Source: Candidatus Kuenenia stuttgartensis
Lineage (GTDB): Bacteria; Planctomycetota; Planctomycetia; Planctomycetales; Planctomycetaceae
DNA length: 64,000 nt
NCBI GenBank assembly: GCA_945904015.1
Contig: CAMDPK010000003.1
Span: 1-64,000 of the forward strand
Reading direction: 5' to 3'
Positions 22,709 through 63,686 of the stretch are shown here, one piece after another. Position numbers and translations under genes: made by a program. Within the stretch, counting starts at the first letter, position 1. Each line of letters opens with the position of its first letter. The notes beneath the pieces were generated by a model. That model saw nothing but the letters and a program-made list of their open reading frames with translations, had not been told where the DNA came from and ran no database searches.

Positions 22709-23128
22709 CTAAATCTCTTTGATGTTGTAGTCAAGAACCTCCGCAACACGAATTGCGATTGGACCGGCGGCATTTTGGTGCTTCTGGTTCGCGTAACCAA
22801 CGATGATTTCTTCTCCGGGGACCATGTTAAAGGTGATGCTTCGGTCCTCGTCATGTTCGTCGTCTGACACAACGATGAATGCTGCGTTCTCGCGTAGGCC
22901 GTTCAATCGCTCGATCATTGGATCTATTTCCGCCGCAAGCGGAGGCGGATTTTTCCAACGAGCGTACCCCGCCTTCATCTGCAAGTAGTGCGTGATCATG
23001 TCGCCGATGTGATCACTGCCCTTTTCGCGATCAGCCGTTACGAAAGGAAACGCTTCACGAAGAGTGGCAATCAACTCGTCGAGCCTTTGTGCTGATGCGC
23101 AGTTGGTTGGGATCAAGCGATGGGCCAT
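22709..23128 (-). CDS. Uncharacterised protein
   Basis: 139 residues from the ATG at 23128. It is soluble and mixed alpha/beta. An N-terminal helical region (LDELIATLREAFPFVTAD), a middle helix pair (KAGYARWKNPPPLAAEIDPMIERL) and a C-terminal beta-rich part (AAFIVVSDDEHDEDRSITFNMVPG) can be seen. No motif or family was recognised. It lies 88 bases upstream of the small-protein/retropepsin pair and on the same strand, and may belong to that unit. Confidence 0.6.
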   Translation of the reverse strand: MAHRLIPTNCASAQRLDELIATLREAFPFVTADREKGSDHIGDMITHYLQMKAGYARWKNPPPLAAEIDPMIERLNGLRENAAFIVVSDDEHDEDRSITFNMVPGEEIIVGYANQKHQNAAGPIAIRVAEVLDYNIKEI

Positions 23129-23157
23129 GAGGGATTCGGTGCGATGAGCGACGGAAC

Positions 23158-24420
23158 CTACGGCAACTCGCTCACACCGTCGGGGCTGACGAGCAGCAGT
23201 TTGTCGGTCAGCGGGTGGTCCATCTGCGAGAAGTCTTCGCGGACGCGGTCGCGGATGTGGTTGACCATGTCGGGAGCGTCGGTGCTCAGCGCGACGAAGA
23301 AGTCGCGGTTGGGGATGCCGACGGCGAACTCGGTGCCGAGCACGTCGCGGACCTTTTCGTGGAACGCTTGGCTGAGCAAGCGGGACGTGTTGTAGGCGTC
23401 TGGTTTGTGCGGCATCAGCAGCTTGGGGCCGTCCTCTTGGCCGGTGAGCATCATCTCGGAGGGATGCTCGTCGAAGTAGCGGTCGAGGTTGCTCAGCGCC
23501 AGTTCGTGAAGTTGCTCGGCGGTGAGGTGCCACTTCTCCAGCAGTTCGTTGCGGATGTACCAGTAGGCTTGGGCTTCATCGACGACGTACAGGATCATCA
23601 GGTTCGCGACCCACGGCTCGCCCACGAAGTTCGGGAAGTTTTGCTTCCAGACTTTCTCCGGGTAGAGCATCGGCATGATGCGGTCGCGGACGGAGTCGAG
23701 CGACGGCGTGGTTTGATCTTCGCCCCATTCCTGCACTTGGACGACGGTGGTCAGGGCCGGCAGCAGGATGTTTTCGAATCGGTCGGGCGACTGAACGTAC
23801 GAGCGATAAAAGTTGAACAGGTTCACGTTCGACTTGCCGAGCCGCAGTTGGAACTCGCCAGTCTGTTCGCATTCGAGCAACGGGAACTTGTCGCGCGCCA
23901 ACTTGAGTGCGCGGGCGGCAAACAATTGTGGTGGGTCGGCGATCATGTCGGGAGCCTCCAGCGTGTTGAGCACCATGCGGACGAGCGTGTCCGTTTCCGG
24001 ATCGTGCGGCCGGTCGCCCCGTTCGACGAACGTGACCAGCAGCATCATGCTCGGCCATTCGATGGACCAAGCTTTCCAGCGATGCCACTTCGCGCGCGAG
24101 AACCAGCGTCGCCACCAAGATTGCGGCGGATCGAGCACCGCTTCACCGTCCCAACCGGCGGAGGACTGCGGCAATCCCAGCGGGTGAATGCGGCGCATCT
24201 TGCGGCGTCGCGGGAACAGCCGATCGAACTCGATCGAGTCTTCCAGCGCGGGCGTATCACCCCAGATGCAGCGGAGCGACACGATGCCGGCTTGCTCCGG
24301 CAGCATGATGTGCGTGACCCCTTCGAAGACTTGCACCTGCCACGAGGGCGGACAGCCGATGTGAAACCAGCCTGACGGACCGGTGATCGCTTTCCAATGG
24401 TCGGGCGGATCGTGACGCAC
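23158..24420 (-). CDS. DUF1444/YtpQ-like protein with N-terminal extension
   Basis: 420 residues from a GTG at 24420. The C-terminal half (about 185-420) fits the DUF1444 (YtpQ) family: FENILLPALTTVVQ, then the closing FFVALSTDAPDMVNHIRDRV and KLLLVSPDGVSEL. The N-terminal half (about 1-180) is a separate beta-rich domain with many tryptophans that recalls PsbP/Mog1-like folds (GWFHIGCPPSWQV). The family has no established function. No signal peptide is present. Confidence 0.75.
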   Translation of the reverse strand: MRHDPPDHWKAITGPSGWFHIGCPPSWQVQVFEGVTHIMLPEQAGIVSLRCIWGDTPALEDSIEFDRLFPRRRKMRRIHPLGLPQSSAGWDGEAVLDPPQSWWRRWFSRAKWHRWKAWSIEWPSMMLLVTFVERGDRPHDPETDTLVRMVLNTLEAPDMIADPPQLFAARALKLARDKFPLLECEQTGEFQLRLGKSNVNLFNFYRSYVQSPDRFENILLPALTTVVQVQEWGEDQTTPSLDSVRDRIMPMLYPEKVWKQNFPNFVGEPWVANLMILYVVDEAQAYWYIRNELLEKWHLTAEQLHELALSNLDRYFDEHPSEMMLTGQEDGPKLLMPHKPDAYNTSRLLSQAFHEKVRDVLGTEFAVGIPNRDFFVALSTDAPDMVNHIRDRVREDFSQMDHPLTDKLLLVSPDGVSELP

Positions 24421-49219: not shown

Positions 49220-52200
49220 TCACTTCTTCCGTCGTTTGTCCTGCGTGCTGTCCAGCAGCACTCGGCCGTTTTCGTCTTTGATAAGAGCTTGGTTGTCGAA
49301 CGTGTCGTCGTTGATCCAGCGGTTGAAGCCGGTGCCGATCCAGCCGGTCGGCATGTCGATCGAACGCCAGTGAAAACCTCGCGACGAGGCGTCCCAGGTG
49401 ACCCGCCACTGGCCGCCGAAGACATCGTTGGCGAAGTGCGTGTAGTGATACGATTTTTCCTTGGGGTCGTAGGTCATGAGGCCCACCGTATTCATGTTCT
49501 GCTTGTCGTCGTACGAGCGGAACATCAGGAACCGGCCGCCGATGGCCCACGCGGTGCGTTCGGCGATCGTGGCGGTGTCGCCGTCAGGGAACCAGATCGA
49601 CGGCTTCATGGTCTGCCGGATCGTCCAATCGCCGGCCATCTTGTTGAGCAGCGCGAGTTCTTCGTTGCCAGCAGCGGGACCATTCGACAGCGTGAGGTCG
49701 TCGTCCACTTTGGACGACTTGCGGACCCACGTCGCTCGCATGTCGCGAGTCACCTGACCGTCGGCGCTTTTGACCAGCAGCGTCGATTCGATGCGATCGT
49801 TGCTCACAAAGCGGTCGGTGCTGGTGCCGGTGACTCCGGGCGACGGCGGTTTGGCTTGCAACGTGAGCGTTTGTGACGCGGCATCCCACTGGCCGATCCG
49901 CTCAAAAACTTCGCCGCCGGAGCCGAACAGCCAGATGTGATAGCTACCAACGATTTCGTCGAAGCCGAGGATTGCGAGATACTGTTGATCGCCAGCTTCA
50001 CTCGCCCATTGCCAGAGCAGAAACCGATCGTCGAGGATTTTCCGCACTACGACATTCGCCTTGATCGTCTGTTCGTCCGGCGTGGCCGCCGTGGGCTTGT
50101 ACACGGTTGTTGATTCCCAGCGGCCGACCCAGCGATCGAAGACGGCTGATTGATGCGTTGGCACGCCGTACTCCGTCTCGAAGTTTTTCGGCAGCTTGTT
50201 GGCGTGGAAGGCGAGCAATTCGAGGTCGTCGAAGATGGCCTTGCCTTTGCCGATCAGCGTCAGGGCAAGGCTGAGCGACCGGGCCTCCGGATAAGTCTTG
50301 AGAGCGTCCACGATGGTCAACCGATGCCAGCCGTCCTGCTTGATGCTGACCGTGCCGCGGTTCTCGCCGATGTATTGTCCGCTGGCATCGAAGTAGAGCA
50401 GCTTGATCTGGGCCGACCCGGATTCGAGCTGCACCCAGCCGCTCGCGGCGTACCGATAGGCGGGATGCGCCGGCGGACGGTTCGTGGGAATGACGGCGAA
50501 CAGCCCGTCGCCTTCGATCATCCAGCCTCGCTTGCCGGTTCGTCCGCCTTCGACGACTCGATGCTGATAGGTGTTCGGCGGAATGACATTTCCCGTGCCC
50601 CAGCCCGCCGGGTATCGCTCGCCCAGCGCGGTGGCTTCTAGCGACGGATCGGTGATCAGATTGACGCCGAGCAGAACGGTGGGTGGCAGAGTCGGTGCGG
50701 ATGATCGAGGTGTTTTGATGACCGCGCCCGGCACTGGCTTGGTCTTCGGTCCGGGGATCGGCAGCGGTTCGAGCGTGGTCGCGTAGGTATTCACACGCCA
50801 CTGGCCGTCGGTGTCGAAGTTCAACACTGCCGACTCAAACATCAGGCCCTGGCGTTTCGCGAAATGAGTCTTGTATTCCACGGCCGCGTAACGTCCCGCC
50901 GGAAGGCCTGGAAATTCGCCGATCAGCCACAGTCGCCGAAGCGTCCGTTGAGTGGCCTTGCCAACCGTATCGCGGAGCAACTGGTACTGCTTAGACGCTT
51001 GCTCCTTCGTTGCCGCACGTTTGGCCAACATCGAGGAGATGTCGTGCAACTGGTCGAACTTGTCGTCGTCAGCCACTACCAAGAATGCTTCGGCCGCCTT
51101 GAGAACTTTCCGCTCTTCGTCTCCCAGCGTCGCGGCGACCGTGACGCGCTCGAACACCGCCGTCAGATGATCCGGCCGGTGATCGGGATCAAAGTTGGTC
51201 GGCCGCGAGTAGTCCTGGTCGATCAGCGCCAGCTTGAGCCGCTCGCCGTCGAACTGGTAGATGCCCGGCATCGCTTCCTGCTTGCCGGGAGCCACGAAGT
51301 CGATCTGCTTGGGATCGCGGTTCGAGTTGATCGTGAACGTCACGGCTATAGGCGTCGGCGGGCCGGAGGGTTGGACGAACTCGACACGCTCGCCGTCGAA
51401 CGTGATCGACAACTGCGTGAGTTCTGCGGCTGTCAGCGGTTTCTTCCGCGCGTGGCCGGAAACGGCAATCCACTTGCCTTGCAGCCGCTTCTCGTCTGAG
51501 ACGGTCGCGTTTTCGGTCTTTAGTTTGAACGTCACCGTGACTCGCTTCGCGCCGCCTCGCGTGAGACTGAACTTGTCGGTGTCGGTCGTCAGCCCGTCTG
51601 GAAGCTCGGTCACGTTGATCAGGTACTCGCCCTTGCGGATCGAATGCTTGCCCGCCTTGAGCTCATACTTTCGTCCCGTGACCTTATCGTGAATCTTCAC
51701 GCGAGACTGCTTTTCAATAAGCACGGCGACTTTATCGGAGGCTCGAATCTCGAACGTCCCTGTGTCGGTCTGCACGTAGATCACGATCGCCGCGAGGATC
51801 AACGCCGCAAACAGAAACGCCGCTGCGACCGTTCGACCAATCCGCCGTCGCGGAGGCAACGCGGTTTGCGTGAACGGAGCCGACACTGCGACGACTTCAG
51901 CCGGAGTTTGAAACCGCTCGGCGGGATTCTTCGCCATCATCCGCGAGACGACGGCGGCCAGCTCGGTCGGCACATCATTCCGCAGCGTCGTCAGTACCGG
52001 CGGCGACTGTTCGGCATGAGCCTTGAGCTTCATAAGCACATTGTCCGCCTCAAACGGCGGCTTGCCGGTCAGCAGAAACCAGAACGTGCAGCCGAGGCTG
52101 TAAATGTCCGCTCGAATGTCCGCCGAGTGCGCATCCTGAATCTGCTCCGGCGCGATGTAGTCCGGAGTCCCCATCACGCTGCCCGCTGTCGTGAGATGCC

Positions 52201-53083
52201 CTTTGGAGTGCGGGGTGTCAGAACCATTTTGGATTTCCTTTGTCGCTGCCGCGCCGGTCTCCGCTGAAAGATCTGAAAGCGGTGCTGACACACCGCACTC
52301 CAAAGTGAACCCTGCCAGTCCGAAATCCAGAATCCGTACCTGCCCCTCAGCCGACAGCATCAAGTTGTGCGGTTTGATGTCGCGGTGAACCATCCCCTTC
52401 TCGTGAGCGTGTTGCAGCCCCTCGGCCGCCTGCCGAATGCACTCGCTCGCTTCGGCGACCGACATCGGCCCGCGATGTTTCACGACGCTGGCGAGGTTGG
52501 TTCCTTCGACGAACTCCATCACCAGAAAGTGAACGTCACCCGCCTGCTCGGCGTCGTAGGCCGTGACGATGTTGGGATGCGTCAGCTTCGCCGCCGCCTG
52601 CACCTCGCGCCGAAACCGCACGACGGCTTGCGGCTGTCGGATCAATTGCGAATTGATGAGCTTGATCGCCACCGGCCGGTTCATCAGCCGATGCTCGGCC
52701 CGATAGACGTTCCCCATGCCGCCGCGCCCGATCAGCTCGACGATGCGATAACGCGGATGGTCTCGCAGTTCGATTGGCAGTTCATCGACACTGACCGGCT
52801 CACCCGATTGCACGAGCAACGTGGCCGAGTGTGCCGAGTCGTGGCCGATGCAGCTTGCGTCGGCACCTAGATCGGTACGGACGCTGGCAGCGTCCGCCAC
52901 GACGTCACTCGGCTGCGCGATCTTCACCAGCCCGACGAACGTGTCGTCCTTCAAATCGAGCAGTGTCTCGCAACACACGCGACAGACTTCGAGATGCTGC
53001 TCGACTGAAGTCGACTCGTCAGCCGTGAGCTTCCCCTGCCCGAACGCGATCAACTGCTCTTTCTGCGGATGGTCGAGCGACAT
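49220..53083 (-). CDS. Zinc-finger Ser/Thr protein kinase with TIGR03067-like and DUF1579-like domains
   Basis: 1287 residues; ATG with AGAGG upstream. Order: zf-HC2-like anti-sigma zinc finger (HLEVCRVCC, about 29-40); kinase (about 112-400) with GRGGMGNVY, VAIK141, HRDIKPHN, DFG253 and GTPDYIAPEQ; a repeat-derived insertion of about 36 residues in the activation segment (260-296); a transmembrane helix (about 417-437); a TIGR03067-like domain (LQGKWIAVSGH); a beta-sandwich region (about 760-900); and two DUF1579-like domains (about 925-1100 and 1145-1287; VGRWESTT and AGDWTIRQT). It probably senses an extracellular cue and phosphorylates targets inside. It lies next to an ECF sigma factor gene, the usual arrangement for planctomycete kinase-linked sigma factors. 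Confidence 0.9.
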   Translation of the reverse strand: MSLDHPQKEQLIAFGQGKLTADESTSVEQHLEVCRVCCETLLDLKDDTFVGLVKIAQPSDVVADAASVRTDLGADASCIGHDSAHSATLLVQSGEPVSVDELPIELRDHPRYRIVELIGRGGMGNVYRAEHRLMNRPVAIKLINSQLIRQPQAVVRFRREVQAAAKLTHPNIVTAYDAEQAGDVHFLVMEFVEGTNLASVVKHRGPMSVAEASECIRQAAEGLQHAHEKGMVHRDIKPHNLMLSAEGQVRILDFGLAGFTLECGVSAPLSDLSAETGAAATKEIQNGSDTPHSKGHLTTAGSVMGTPDYIAPEQIQDAHSADIRADIYSLGCTFWFLLTGKPPFEADNVLMKLKAHAEQSPPVLTTLRNDVPTELAAVVSRMMAKNPAERFQTPAEVVAVSAPFTQTALPPRRRIGRTVAAAFLFAALILAAIVIYVQTDTGTFEIRASDKVAVLIEKQSRVKIHDKVTGRKYELKAGKHSIRKGEYLINVTELPDGLTTDTDKFSLTRGGAKRVTVTFKLKTENATVSDEKRLQGKWIAVSGHARKKPLTAAELTQLSITFDGERVEFVQPSGPPTPIAVTFTINSNRDPKQIDFVAPGKQEAMPGIYQFDGERLKLALIDQDYSRPTNFDPDHRPDHLTAVFERVTVAATLGDEERKVLKAAEAFLVVADDDKFDQLHDISSMLAKRAATKEQASKQYQLLRDTVGKATQRTLRRLWLIGEFPGLPAGRYAAVEYKTHFAKRQGLMFESAVLNFDTDGQWRVNTYATTLEPLPIPGPKTKPVPGAVIKTPRSSAPTLPPTVLLGVNLITDPSLEATALGERYPAGWGTGNVIPPNTYQHRVVEGGRTGKRGWMIEGDGLFAVIPTNRPPAHPAYRYAASGWVQLESGSAQIKLLYFDASGQYIGENRGTVSIKQDGWHRLTIVDALKTYPEARSLSLALTLIGKGKAIFDDLELLAFHANKLPKNFETEYGVPTHQSAVFDRWVGRWESTTVYKPTAATPDEQTIKANVVVRKILDDRFLLWQWASEAGDQQYLAILGFDEIVGSYHIWLFGSGGEVFERIGQWDAASQTLTLQAKPPSPGVTGTSTDRFVSNDRIESTLLVKSADGQVTRDMRATWVRKSSKVDDDLTLSNGPAAGNEELALLNKMAGDWTIRQTMKPSIWFPDGDTATIAERTAWAIGGRFLMFRSYDDKQNMNTVGLMTYDPKEKSYHYTHFANDVFGGQWRVTWDASSRGFHWRSIDMPTGWIGTGFNRWINDDTFDNQALIKDENGRVLLDSTQDKRRKK
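52199..52305. repeat. Palindromic repeat, CCTTTGGAGTGCGG family, inside kinase gene
   Basis: The left arm reads CTTTGGAGTGCGGGGTGTCA and the right is its inverse with small changes, around a 60-bp centre. It lies fully within the kinase reading frame and keeps it open. The translated peptide contains ECGVSAPL and SDTPHSKG, phrases also produced by the copy at 56052-56193. Confidence 0.9.
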
Positions 53084-53098: not shown

Positions 53099-53218
53099 GT
53101 AGCCATCACACTCCCGCGTGATGAGCCGAACGCTGTGGAAAATTTTCGAGTGAAAGAAATCACCAGAATCGCAAGTCGGTGAAGCGTTCGGCTCGTCGCG
53201 CGGGAGCGTGACGGCTAC
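53099..53218. repeat. Palindromic repeat, GTAGCCRTCACRCTCCCGCG family
   Basis: Arms of about 36 bp (53099-53134 and 53183-53218) with several mismatches: GTAGCCATCACACTCCCGCG on the left and the inverse of GTAGCCGTCACGCTCCCGCG on the right. It occupies the 140 bp between the kinase gene and the DUF1579-like gene upstream of it, six bases after the latter's stop codon. Confidence 0.85.
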
Positions 53219-56051: not shown

Positions 56052-56193
56052 CCTTTGGAGTGCGGTGTGTCAGCACCGCTTTCATTTGCGGCACAGCCGC
56101 TTTCTAATTTCTTCGCTGCTGAATCGCGACTCGCCGACAGAAAAGCGGCTGCGCCGAAATCCAAAGCGGTGCTGACACACCGCACTCCAAAGG
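56052..56193. repeat. Palindromic repeat, CCTTTGGAGTGCGG family, between divergent genes
   Basis: 142 bp. Outer arms CCTTTGGAGTGCGGTGTGTC (left) and the inverse (right) are perfect for about 28 bp; an inner pair (GGCACAGCCGCTTT and AAAGCGGCTGCGCC) lies within. Each end carries CCAAAGG reading outwards, which forms the Shine-Dalgarno sequence of the gene on that side. Same family as the element in the kinase gene (52199). Confidence 0.92.
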
Positions 56194-61811: not shown

Positions 61812-63686
61812 ATGAGTGACGTCATCTACGATTTTGATGTGGTGGTAATCGGGGCCGGACACGCCGGCTGCGAAGCGGCGCTGGCGTCCGCTCGCCTCGG
61901 CGCAAAGACGGCGTTGCTGACGATGAGTTGCGACATGGTCGCCGCAATGAGCTGCAACCCGGCGATCGGTGGCGTCGCGAAAGGGCAGATCGTTCGCGAG
62001 ATCGATGCACTCGGCGGTGAGATGGGGCGAATCATCGACGAGACCGGCATTCAGTTTCGGATGCTCAATCGAACCAAAGGCCCGGCGATGCACAGCCCGC
62101 GTGCTCAGGCCGACAAAAAGGCGTATCAGATCGCGATGAAATGGCGCGTCGAGCAGCAAGAGAATCTGACGCTGCGGCAAGAAGTGGTCGAGGGCTTGGA
62201 CGTGGGGCAGGTTTCCAACCTGCCAGCCCACTCGTCCGGGCAGGTTGGAAACCTGCCCCACGTCAGCGCCGTCCGCGTGAAAGGGGGAGCGATTTACCGT
62301 GCGAAGGCGGTCGTCATCACGACGGGTACGTTCCTGCAAGCGATCATGCACACCGGCGAGGCGAAAGCGTTCGGCGGCCGAGCGGGAGAAGGGACGACCA
62401 CCGGATTGTCGCACACACTAACGGAACTCGGCTTTGAACTGCGACGGTTCAAGACCGGTACGCCGTGCCGGATCAACGGACGCACGATTGATTTCTCCGC
62501 CACACAGGAACAACCGGGAGACGCCGAGCCGCAGCCGTTTTCGTTCTTGACCGACGCGATCACTCAGCCGCAGATGTGTTGTCATCTGACCGAGACGAAC
62601 GAGCGTGTTCACGAACTCATCCGAGCCAACTTGCATCGGGCACCGATGTATTCGGGACAGATTCAATCGACCGGGCCGCGCTACTGTCCGAGCATCGAAG
62701 ACAAAGTCGTGCGGTTCGCCGACAAGACCGCTCACCATATCTTTCTGGAGCCGGAAGGCCGCCACACCTGCGAGTACTACTGCAACGGCATCTCGACCAG
62801 CCTGCCGCGCGACGTGCAGGAGGAGTTGGTGCATTTGATTCCCGGCCTCGAACAGGCCGAGATCATGCGCTACGGCTACGCGGTCGAGTACGACTTCGCT
62901 CCGCCGACGCAGTTGCACGCGACGCTCGAAACGAAACAGGTCGCGGGGCTGTATTTCGCCGGCCAAATCAATGGAACGACCGGCTACGAAGAGGCGGCCG
63001 GTCAAGGTTTGCTCGCCGGGGCCAACGCGGCGTTGAAAATTGCCAACAAGCCGCCGCTGATTTTGGACCGCAGCCAGGCGTATCTCGGCGTGATGATCGA
63101 CGACCTCGTGACGAAAGGGGTCGATGAGCCGTACCGCATGTTTACTTCGCGAGCCGAATACCGCTTGCTCCTGCGTCACGACAACGCCGACCGCCGCCTG
63201 ACACCGATTGGGGCTCGCGTCGGACTGGCGTCGGCCGAGCGAGTTCGCCGCTGGGAAGCTCACGAAGCAGCGATCGCGGCGGCCTCGGAGTTGACCGTTA
63301 AGAAATTCCATCAAGGTCACAGCCTGGAAGAATGGCTGCGCCGGCCGGAGACCGAATGGCTCGACGTCTGCGAGTTCAGTGAGGAAGCGCGGTCGTTGAA
63401 TTTGCCGACGCAGGCCGCAAAGCAACTCTCGATCGAAGCCAAGTACGCCGGCTATATCCGCCGACAAACCCAGACAATTGAACGCCAAGAGCAAGTTGAC
63501 ACCGTCCGTATCCCAGACGCCTTCGACTTCCATGCCTGCCCACAACTCCGCGCAGAAGCGAAGGAGAAATTCACTCGCGTGCGTCCGCGTCACGTCGGCC
63601 AAGCGAGTCGGATCAGCGGCATCACTCCGGCCGATCTCGCAGTGCTGATGCTGTATCTTACCGAGCCGACGCGGATGGCGACGTAG
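61812..63686 (+). CDS. mnmG: tRNA U34 carboxymethylaminomethyl-modifying enzyme MnmG, with 20-residue repeat-derived insertion
   Basis: 624 residues. FAD-binding Rossmann VVVIGAGHAGCEAALASAR (about 10-28), CNPAIGGVAKG (catalytic Cys), the second GTGT region VVITTGTFLQAIMHTG, GYAVEYDF and the C-terminal helical domain with SRAEYRLLLRHDNADRRLTPIG. With MnmE it modifies wobble uridine in tRNAs. Residues 131-150 (VGQVSNLPAHSSGQVGNLPH) are encoded exactly by a palindromic repeat and are absent in other MnmG proteins; without them the length (604) and alignment (QEVVEGLD-VSAVRVKGG) are standard. ATG overlaps the repeat-free start; GAGAGCAGGC upstream is a weak ribosome site. Confidence 0.95.
   Translation: MSDVIYDFDVVVIGAGHAGCEAALASARLGAKTALLTMSCDMVAAMSCNPAIGGVAKGQIVREIDALGGEMGRIIDETGIQFRMLNRTKGPAMHSPRAQADKKAYQIAMKWRVEQQENLTLRQEVVEGLDVGQVSNLPAHSSGQVGNLPHVSAVRVKGGAIYRAKAVVITTGTFLQAIMHTGEAKAFGGRAGEGTTTGLSHTLTELGFELRRFKTGTPCRINGRTIDFSATQEQPGDAEPQPFSFLTDAITQPQMCCHLTETNERVHELIRANLHRAPMYSGQIQSTGPRYCPSIEDKVVRFADKTAHHIFLEPEGRHTCEYYCNGISTSLPRDVQEELVHLIPGLEQAEIMRYGYAVEYDFAPPTQLHATLETKQVAGLYFAGQINGTTGYEEAAGQGLLAGANAALKIANKPPLILDRSQAYLGVMIDDLVTKGVDEPYRMFTSRAEYRLLLRHDNADRRLTPIGARVGLASAERVRRWEAHEAAIAAASELTVKKFHQGHSLEEWLRRPETEWLDVCEFSEEARSLNLPTQAAKQLSIEAKYAGYIRRQTQTIERQEQVDTVRIPDAFDFHACPQLRAEAKEKFTRVRPRHVGQASRISGITPADLAVLMLYLTEPTRMAT
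62202..62261. repeat. Palindromic repeat, GTGGGGCAGG family, copy 2, in frame inside mnmG
   Basis: 60 bp = 20 codons, starting exactly on a codon boundary (62202) and ending on one. Arms GTGGGGCAGGTTTCCAACCT and the inverse with one mismatch, 18-base loop. Same family as 13574-13657 but with TTCC rather than TTTC in the arm. Confidence 0.95.

Follow-up and report, generated by a model that had tools for sequence, protein, structure and literature searches.

The 64,000-nucleotide stretch analyzed here (the window; positions 1 to 64,000 of contig CAMDPK010000003.1, assembly GCA_945904015.1, Candidatus Kuenenia stuttgartensis, genome G000) contains an open reading frame (ORF) on the reverse strand (positions 49220 to 53083) predicted to encode a Ser/Thr kinase of 1,287 residues. 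The ORF list, a domain scan, a PknB alignment, and Foldseek were used to assign a PknB-like kinase domain (Pkinase PF00069, residues 112 to 392, E = 7.1e-53), followed by DUF4019 and DUF1579. Within this gene, an inverted repeat encodes 36 residues of the activation segment, the switch of the enzyme. The repeat is probably a mobile-element-like doublet that was inserted in frame at the tip of the segment and replaced most of an older loop, as part of insertion and turnover in a tolerated loop.

The repeat doublet at the kinase locus

The insert (positions 52199 to 52306, reverse strand; residues 260 to 295, TLECG...HSKG) was delimited by the inverted repeat and by comparison with orthologues and is flanked by the DFG motif (residues 253 to 255) and HLTTAGSVMGTPDYIAPE. 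An inverted-repeat search placed its 30-nucleotide arms at 52201 to 52230 (forward strand) and 52276 to 52305 (reverse strand), 87% complementary and separated by 45 nucleotides. The palindrome consists of two hairpin repeats, close together and inverted relative to each other, of which the second is a clean hairpin (GGAG, then GCGGTG...CACCGC) and the first is partly decayed. Its score was matched by none of 2,000 Markov shuffles of the gene, and the surrounding 109 nucleotides, as single-stranded DNA, had a predicted folding energy of −29 kcal/mol (z = −5.18). The unit looks like an inverted doublet of repeats resembling repetitive extragenic palindromic (REP) sequences. An earlier sequence-only reading had proposed that a palindromic repeat encodes part of the segment between DFG and APE and belongs to the same family as a repeat at 56052, and both proposals held: the repeat search identified a second doublet of this family (the A family) at 56052 to 56193, with arms at 56052 to 56103 and 56142 to 56193, outside any coding-like ORF.

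The predicted structure of the kinase domain resembled PknB-type kinases in its fold, catalytic motifs, and TxxGT-type end of the activation segment but differed in the 36 repeat-encoded residues. The best Protein Data Bank matches in Foldseek were PknB structures 5u94 and 1o6y (target-normalized TM scores of 0.91 and 0.92). The PknB alignment was interrupted at the insert and resumed at the PknB stretch VTQTAAVIGT, which contains the known activation-loop threonines. The AlphaFold model of the domain had a mean predicted local distance difference test score (pLDDT) of 84.4 and a predicted TM score of 0.82, with 217 of 321 residues at a pLDDT of 90 or above; model residues 160 to 201 (protein residues 259 to 300, covering the insert) were below 50. 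The model of an orthologue with a plain loop (L132) had a mean pLDDT of 88.9 and 11 residues below 50.

Activation loops of orthologous kinases

Orthologues were collected by protein searches covering 59 related genomes and 170 genomes of the family, with 12 genomes counted as the same genus and matches with E below 1e-190 as close orthologues. The activation loop contained an inverted doublet in all five close orthologues of the genus (the window kinase among them), and every doublet had a different sequence: type A in the window, A2 (related to A but with another stem) in G010, B (GTAGCC...) in G002, C (GTGG...) in G004, and D (GTAGGTCAGGC...) in G007. One of two kinase copies (L210) from another genus of the same family (G059) contained a sixth type, E. 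Doublets differing in sequence from that of the window were found at the same loop position in five genes (L055, L056, L057, L058, and L210), and in total six doublet types, two of them related, occupied one loop in six orthologous genes. The loop sequence itself was not conserved between orthologues.

Counted from DFG up to the residue that precedes GTPDY, the segment of the window kinase has 52 residues, compared with 38 or 39 in the nearest doublet-free orthologues (G102, G070, and G025). Doublet-free loops measured to the residue before GTP were L132 and L213, which are identical (38 residues), L212 (39 residues), and L274 (39 residues, from a partial match). From these lengths, the net gain in the window loop comes to about 14 residues, and the older loop sequence is missing. 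The sequence-only estimate of about 36 extra residues thus stands as the length of the repeat-encoded segment but not as the net gain. A simple addition of 36 residues was rejected, because the plain orthologous segments of 38 to 39 residues point to replacement.

These comparisons are best explained by a REP doublet (REPIN)-like mobile element having landed in frame at the tip of the activation segment and having replaced most of an older loop of low conservation. Because its position is between DFG and the conserved LTTAGSVMGTPDY stretch, the insert would leave the catalytic core untouched, and the enlarged loop would be disordered and exposed. The doublets of the different orthologues would have arrived by separate events, presumably generated by single-strand transposition of the type attributed to REP-associated tyrosine transposases (RAYTs, or TnpA-REP). 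The insert itself would be near-neutral, with selection purging frame breaks, stops, and hits to the core, and the enzyme seems to tolerate the activation loop as a landing site.

The occupancy of the loop in all five close orthologues, with G002, G004, and G007 each containing another type at a core synonymous divergence (dS) of about 0.33, would also be expected if a single ancestral doublet had entered the loop once and had later been overwritten by other REP types, through gene conversion or insertion of REPs into REPs, at a slot that acts as a REP-targeted docking site. This history is possible but unlikely. Its traces could include the three repeat units of the G002 insert, which suggest stepwise build-up, the position of the element end within about one codon of HLT on the 3′ side in all orthologues except G002, and the TTTGGAGTGCGG start common to the window (A) and G010 (A2). 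The spacers, however, have no likeness by eye, the 5′ insertion points are as much as about 7 residues apart (after F, FAS, FASE, FVTES, and FVTESAIE), and orthologues with plain loops exist. It is doubtful, more specifically, that REP types keep replacing one another in the loop of an otherwise conserved enzyme, such that sister species have interchangeable activation loops specified by mobile DNA.

Constraint on the remainder of the enzyme was estimated from the ratio of nonsynonymous to synonymous substitution rates (dN/dS) of the core, which ranged from 0.05 to 0.21 over 15 pairs, indicating purifying selection, with dS above 1 in the five pairs involving G102. L210 and L211 are absent from the dN/dS estimates and from the tree because the motif step failed for them, and two tree nodes were weak (0.27 and 0.50). 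The Pkinase domain of the window kinase retains the catalytic Lys, HRD, DFG, and APE, and, as judged from its sequence, the kinase looks still functional. Intact catalytic residues and an open frame had been noted in the sequence-only reading, which had also allowed that the insertion kills the kinase; that suggestion was not supported for the window copy. An in-frame TGA was found within the insert (in the repeat spacer) of the G007 orthologue, as might be seen if such inserts inactivated the kinase and the gene were becoming a pseudogene. For the window gene this is highly unlikely, given an ORF open over 1,287 residues with catalytic motifs intact and a core dN/dS of 0.16 to 0.18 against the four same-genus orthologues. 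As the G007 core is without relaxed constraint, its stop would be either recent or an assembly error.

The several Ser and Thr residues of the insert, and its position beside the stretch that aligns to the activation-loop threonines of PknB, could be taken to mean that the repeat-encoded loop was co-opted, with phosphorylatable residues or a docking surface tuning kinase activation in each species. Such a role is improbable: the absence of conservation across orthologues argues against a conserved site, the segment is predicted to be disordered, and similar inserts occur in the unrelated proteins MnmG, DNA polymerase I, and QueG.

Repeat families, transposase genes, and known systems

The A family was represented by 17 exact pattern matches in the genome of the window, with none for the reversed control. 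Types A2, B, C, and D occurred in all five genomes searched, also with no reversed-pattern matches; counts per genome were 3 to 13 (A2), 36 to 129 (D), 4 to 35 (C), and 66 to 283 (B), in which near-palindromic copies were possibly counted on both strands. Type E had 26 matches (at most 4 mismatches) in 864 kb of G000, with none in the control. A C-type repeat pair, partly decayed, lies in the N-terminal linker of the window kinase (VADAASVRTDLGADASCIGH, positions 52841 to 52900; exact C-type match at 52880 to 52900, partner arm recognized by eye), and this segment can be aligned with G002 and G004. A GTAG-tagged inverted doublet at positions 53099 to 53218 immediately precedes the kinase start codon.

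Matches to the transposase family Y1_Tnp numbered eight in G000, and at least one was present in 11 of the 12 genomes of the genus. At one locus (L090, contig C5 of G000, match at 23025 to 23255), GTAGCCCTGTCGCTCCGCGACAGG GTAG doublets flank the match on both sides, which is the layout of a REP-RAYT unit; these repeats are of a type other than A. REP-type pairs were likewise found on both sides of the match at L112 (G003), where an A doublet lies about 1.4 kb from the Y1 gene. Pairs were on one side or nearby at L104, L114, L119, and L125, those on one side at L125, a Y1 locus of the genus, being GGAG tagged. No pair was detected at most other Y1 loci examined.

Excerpts of the literature describe REPs as hairpins with a 5′ GTAG or GTGG tag that often form inverted doublets, the REPINs, and whose movement is hypothesized to proceed via RAYT transposases acting on single strands (PMC3686654 and PMC8266576). 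The elements described here are similar in forming inverted hairpin pairs, in having many dispersed copies, and in occurring as several types per genome (excerpts of PMC3686654, PMC8266576, and PMC3733652), and Y1 transposase genes are present, a few of them next to such pairs. Orthologue types B and D (GTAG) and C (GTGG) have the REP tag. The elements differ in that several doublet types form part of protein-coding frames.

Several observations weigh against the proposed insertion and turnover of REPIN-like doublets. The tag of the A family is GGAG rather than GTAG or GTGG, and among the loci examined no Y1 transposase gene had flanking A-family repeats, which would mark a cognate gene; for these reasons, the name REP-like rather than REP is used for the window element. 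Twenty A-type sites in G000 were classified (those in loci L001 to L053 that matched the pattern near the locus middle); 17 were outside coding-like ORFs and 2 were single copies inside such ORFs, so that the kinase site was the only whole A doublet within one. In G059, the genome of that type, a 399-kb sample contained no E-type match except at the kinase locus. Finally, orthologues in distant planctomycetes with an alignable segment of the same length but no repeat similarity had been named in the sequence-only reading as grounds for refuting an insertion. As worded, this was not what was found, since sister species contain other repeats, but orthologues L211 (51 residues) and L219 (47 residues) have long loops with no detectable doublet, and distant homologues L214 to L218 have doublet-free loops of 31 to 51 residues, with L214 to L216 at 50 to 51. 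Judging from these sequences, long loops would therefore also arise in other ways, or repeats decay.

Intragenic REPs and Rickettsia palindromic elements (RPEs) are already established phenomena. In O. terrae, R. conorii, and Thauera, REP dimers encode 20 to 30 residues within conserved genes, and the authors already suggested that such insertions may be neutral, being in flexible linkers or loops (excerpts of PMC3733652, 2013). The present case differs in that orthologous kinases have different REP types in one and the same loop, and multiple loops of a single fold are repeatedly hit. The RPEs, among which a guanylate kinase case (Abergel 2006) is cited in PMC2229807, are similar in behavior only, as palindromic elements translated in frame within an enzyme that stays active; they differ in occurring in an unrelated organism and in being described as 105 to 146 bp long (excerpts of PMC2229807). 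Planctomycetes are named as REP carriers in the intragenic REP and RPE literature (excerpts of PMC3733652 and PMC2229807). No report of REPs in planctomycete kinases, or of different REP types sharing one orthologous loop, was found in the accessible portions of the open-licence literature, and the recurrence of different repeat types in one loop of orthologous genes looks new.

Inserts in other kinases and genes

Kinases were surveyed in 140 distinct sequences, a set partly chosen for broken alignments, such that the counts are not a rate. The search yielded 36 inverted pairs (score of at least 13), compared with 2 to 3 expected by chance, an expectation scaled from a shuffle test with slightly stricter settings. 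The pairs were distributed among the activation loop (10), the stretch between beta7 and beta8 (9), positions +55 to +88 after APE (9), sites further C-terminal (3), and the N-terminal side (5), slot counts that are enriched for inserts because 40 kinase regions were picked mostly for alignments to the window kinase that were interrupted near loops or contained stops. In the AlphaFold model of the window kinase, positions +55 to +88 correspond to the loop after helix alphaG. At least three of the 36 pairs are probably due to chance or located outside the domain (L062, and L237 and L180 with a score of 13), and a beta7-beta8 pair in L240 is present but was missed by the motif filter. L262, L267, L147, L186, L205, and L207 were excluded from the loop sets because the motif was not fitted, and L130, L131, L132, L143, L160, L161, and L163 duplicate loops obtained under other identifiers.

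In a second group of kinases (DFGIARMLR...LTQESV), three different repeats occupied the same activation loop (L239, L246, and L249, from G000, G010, and G006, respectively). The loop after alphaG was filled in L238 (G000) and plain in L251 (G007), two kinases grouped by near-identical activation loops, without a tree. Kinases L060, L063, L241, L250, L253, L254, and L260 also have inverted repeats of several types that are read in the beta7-beta8 stretch, adjacent to the catalytic loop.

Genome-wide occurrence was assessed in the 864-kb sample of G000 (the window and 40 stretches of 20 kb), with genes called by a simple codon-score caller. Inverted pairs with a score of at least 17 numbered 175, compared with 0.2 expected; 53 were wholly within a called gene, 53 were across a gene edge, and 69 were intergenic. 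This excess, together with the shuffle test and the 20 A-type sites, leaves a practically negligible chance that the kinase palindrome is a coincidence or an assembly artifact, even though G000 is a 286-contig draft assembly and most of the related genomes are also drafts. A second collection contains the loops of G010 and G004 again (L130 and L131), probably from the same assemblies and thus not independently.

Pairs located at least 90 nucleotides inside a called gene numbered 44, in 35 of 437 genes (about 8%). Thirty of these 35 genes were scanned, and Pfam domains (E of 1e-5 or better) were found in 29 of the 30, and the insert was within the matched domain in ten (MnmG, QueG, AcrB, two PSCyt2, DUF2079, a kinase, two amine oxidases, and DAO); in DNA polymerase I it falls between matched stretches. 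About 40% of the frame readings of intergenic pairs were stop-free, and read-through of such elements is therefore often possible. Among intragenic pairs, the outer span showed no excess of multiples of three (11 of 44), although the detected match may not end at the insertion end. Use of the most hydrophilic frame, considered as a rule, was rejected, as it holds for only 9 of the 44 intragenic pairs. The window itself contains an in-frame doublet (VGQVSNLP...GQVGNLPH, positions 62199 to 62264) in the ORF for MnmG/GidA, a conserved tRNA modification enzyme (61812 to 63686). Repeat-encoded segments were also seen in DNA polymerase I (L300, 11699 to 14557), QueG (L296, 18600 to 19709), and a Cas1-like protein (L315, 500 to 1654), and the AcrB-type pump of G000 is among the genes with an internal doublet.

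The switch loop of kinases is usually regarded as tightly constrained. In the sister species compared here, unrelated repeats fill this loop while the remaining enzyme is conserved. With the activation loop, the beta7-beta8 stretch, and the loop after alphaG as sites, the inserts amount to a natural insertion scan of the kinase fold, and the sets of filled and plain loops allow neutrality and adaptation to be told apart. Repeat pairs at the frequency found in the sampled part of G000 may disturb alignments and structure models. If the activation loop were indeed a docking site for REPs, REPINs would be a natural agent of loop scanning and diversification for the large kinase families of planctomycetes.

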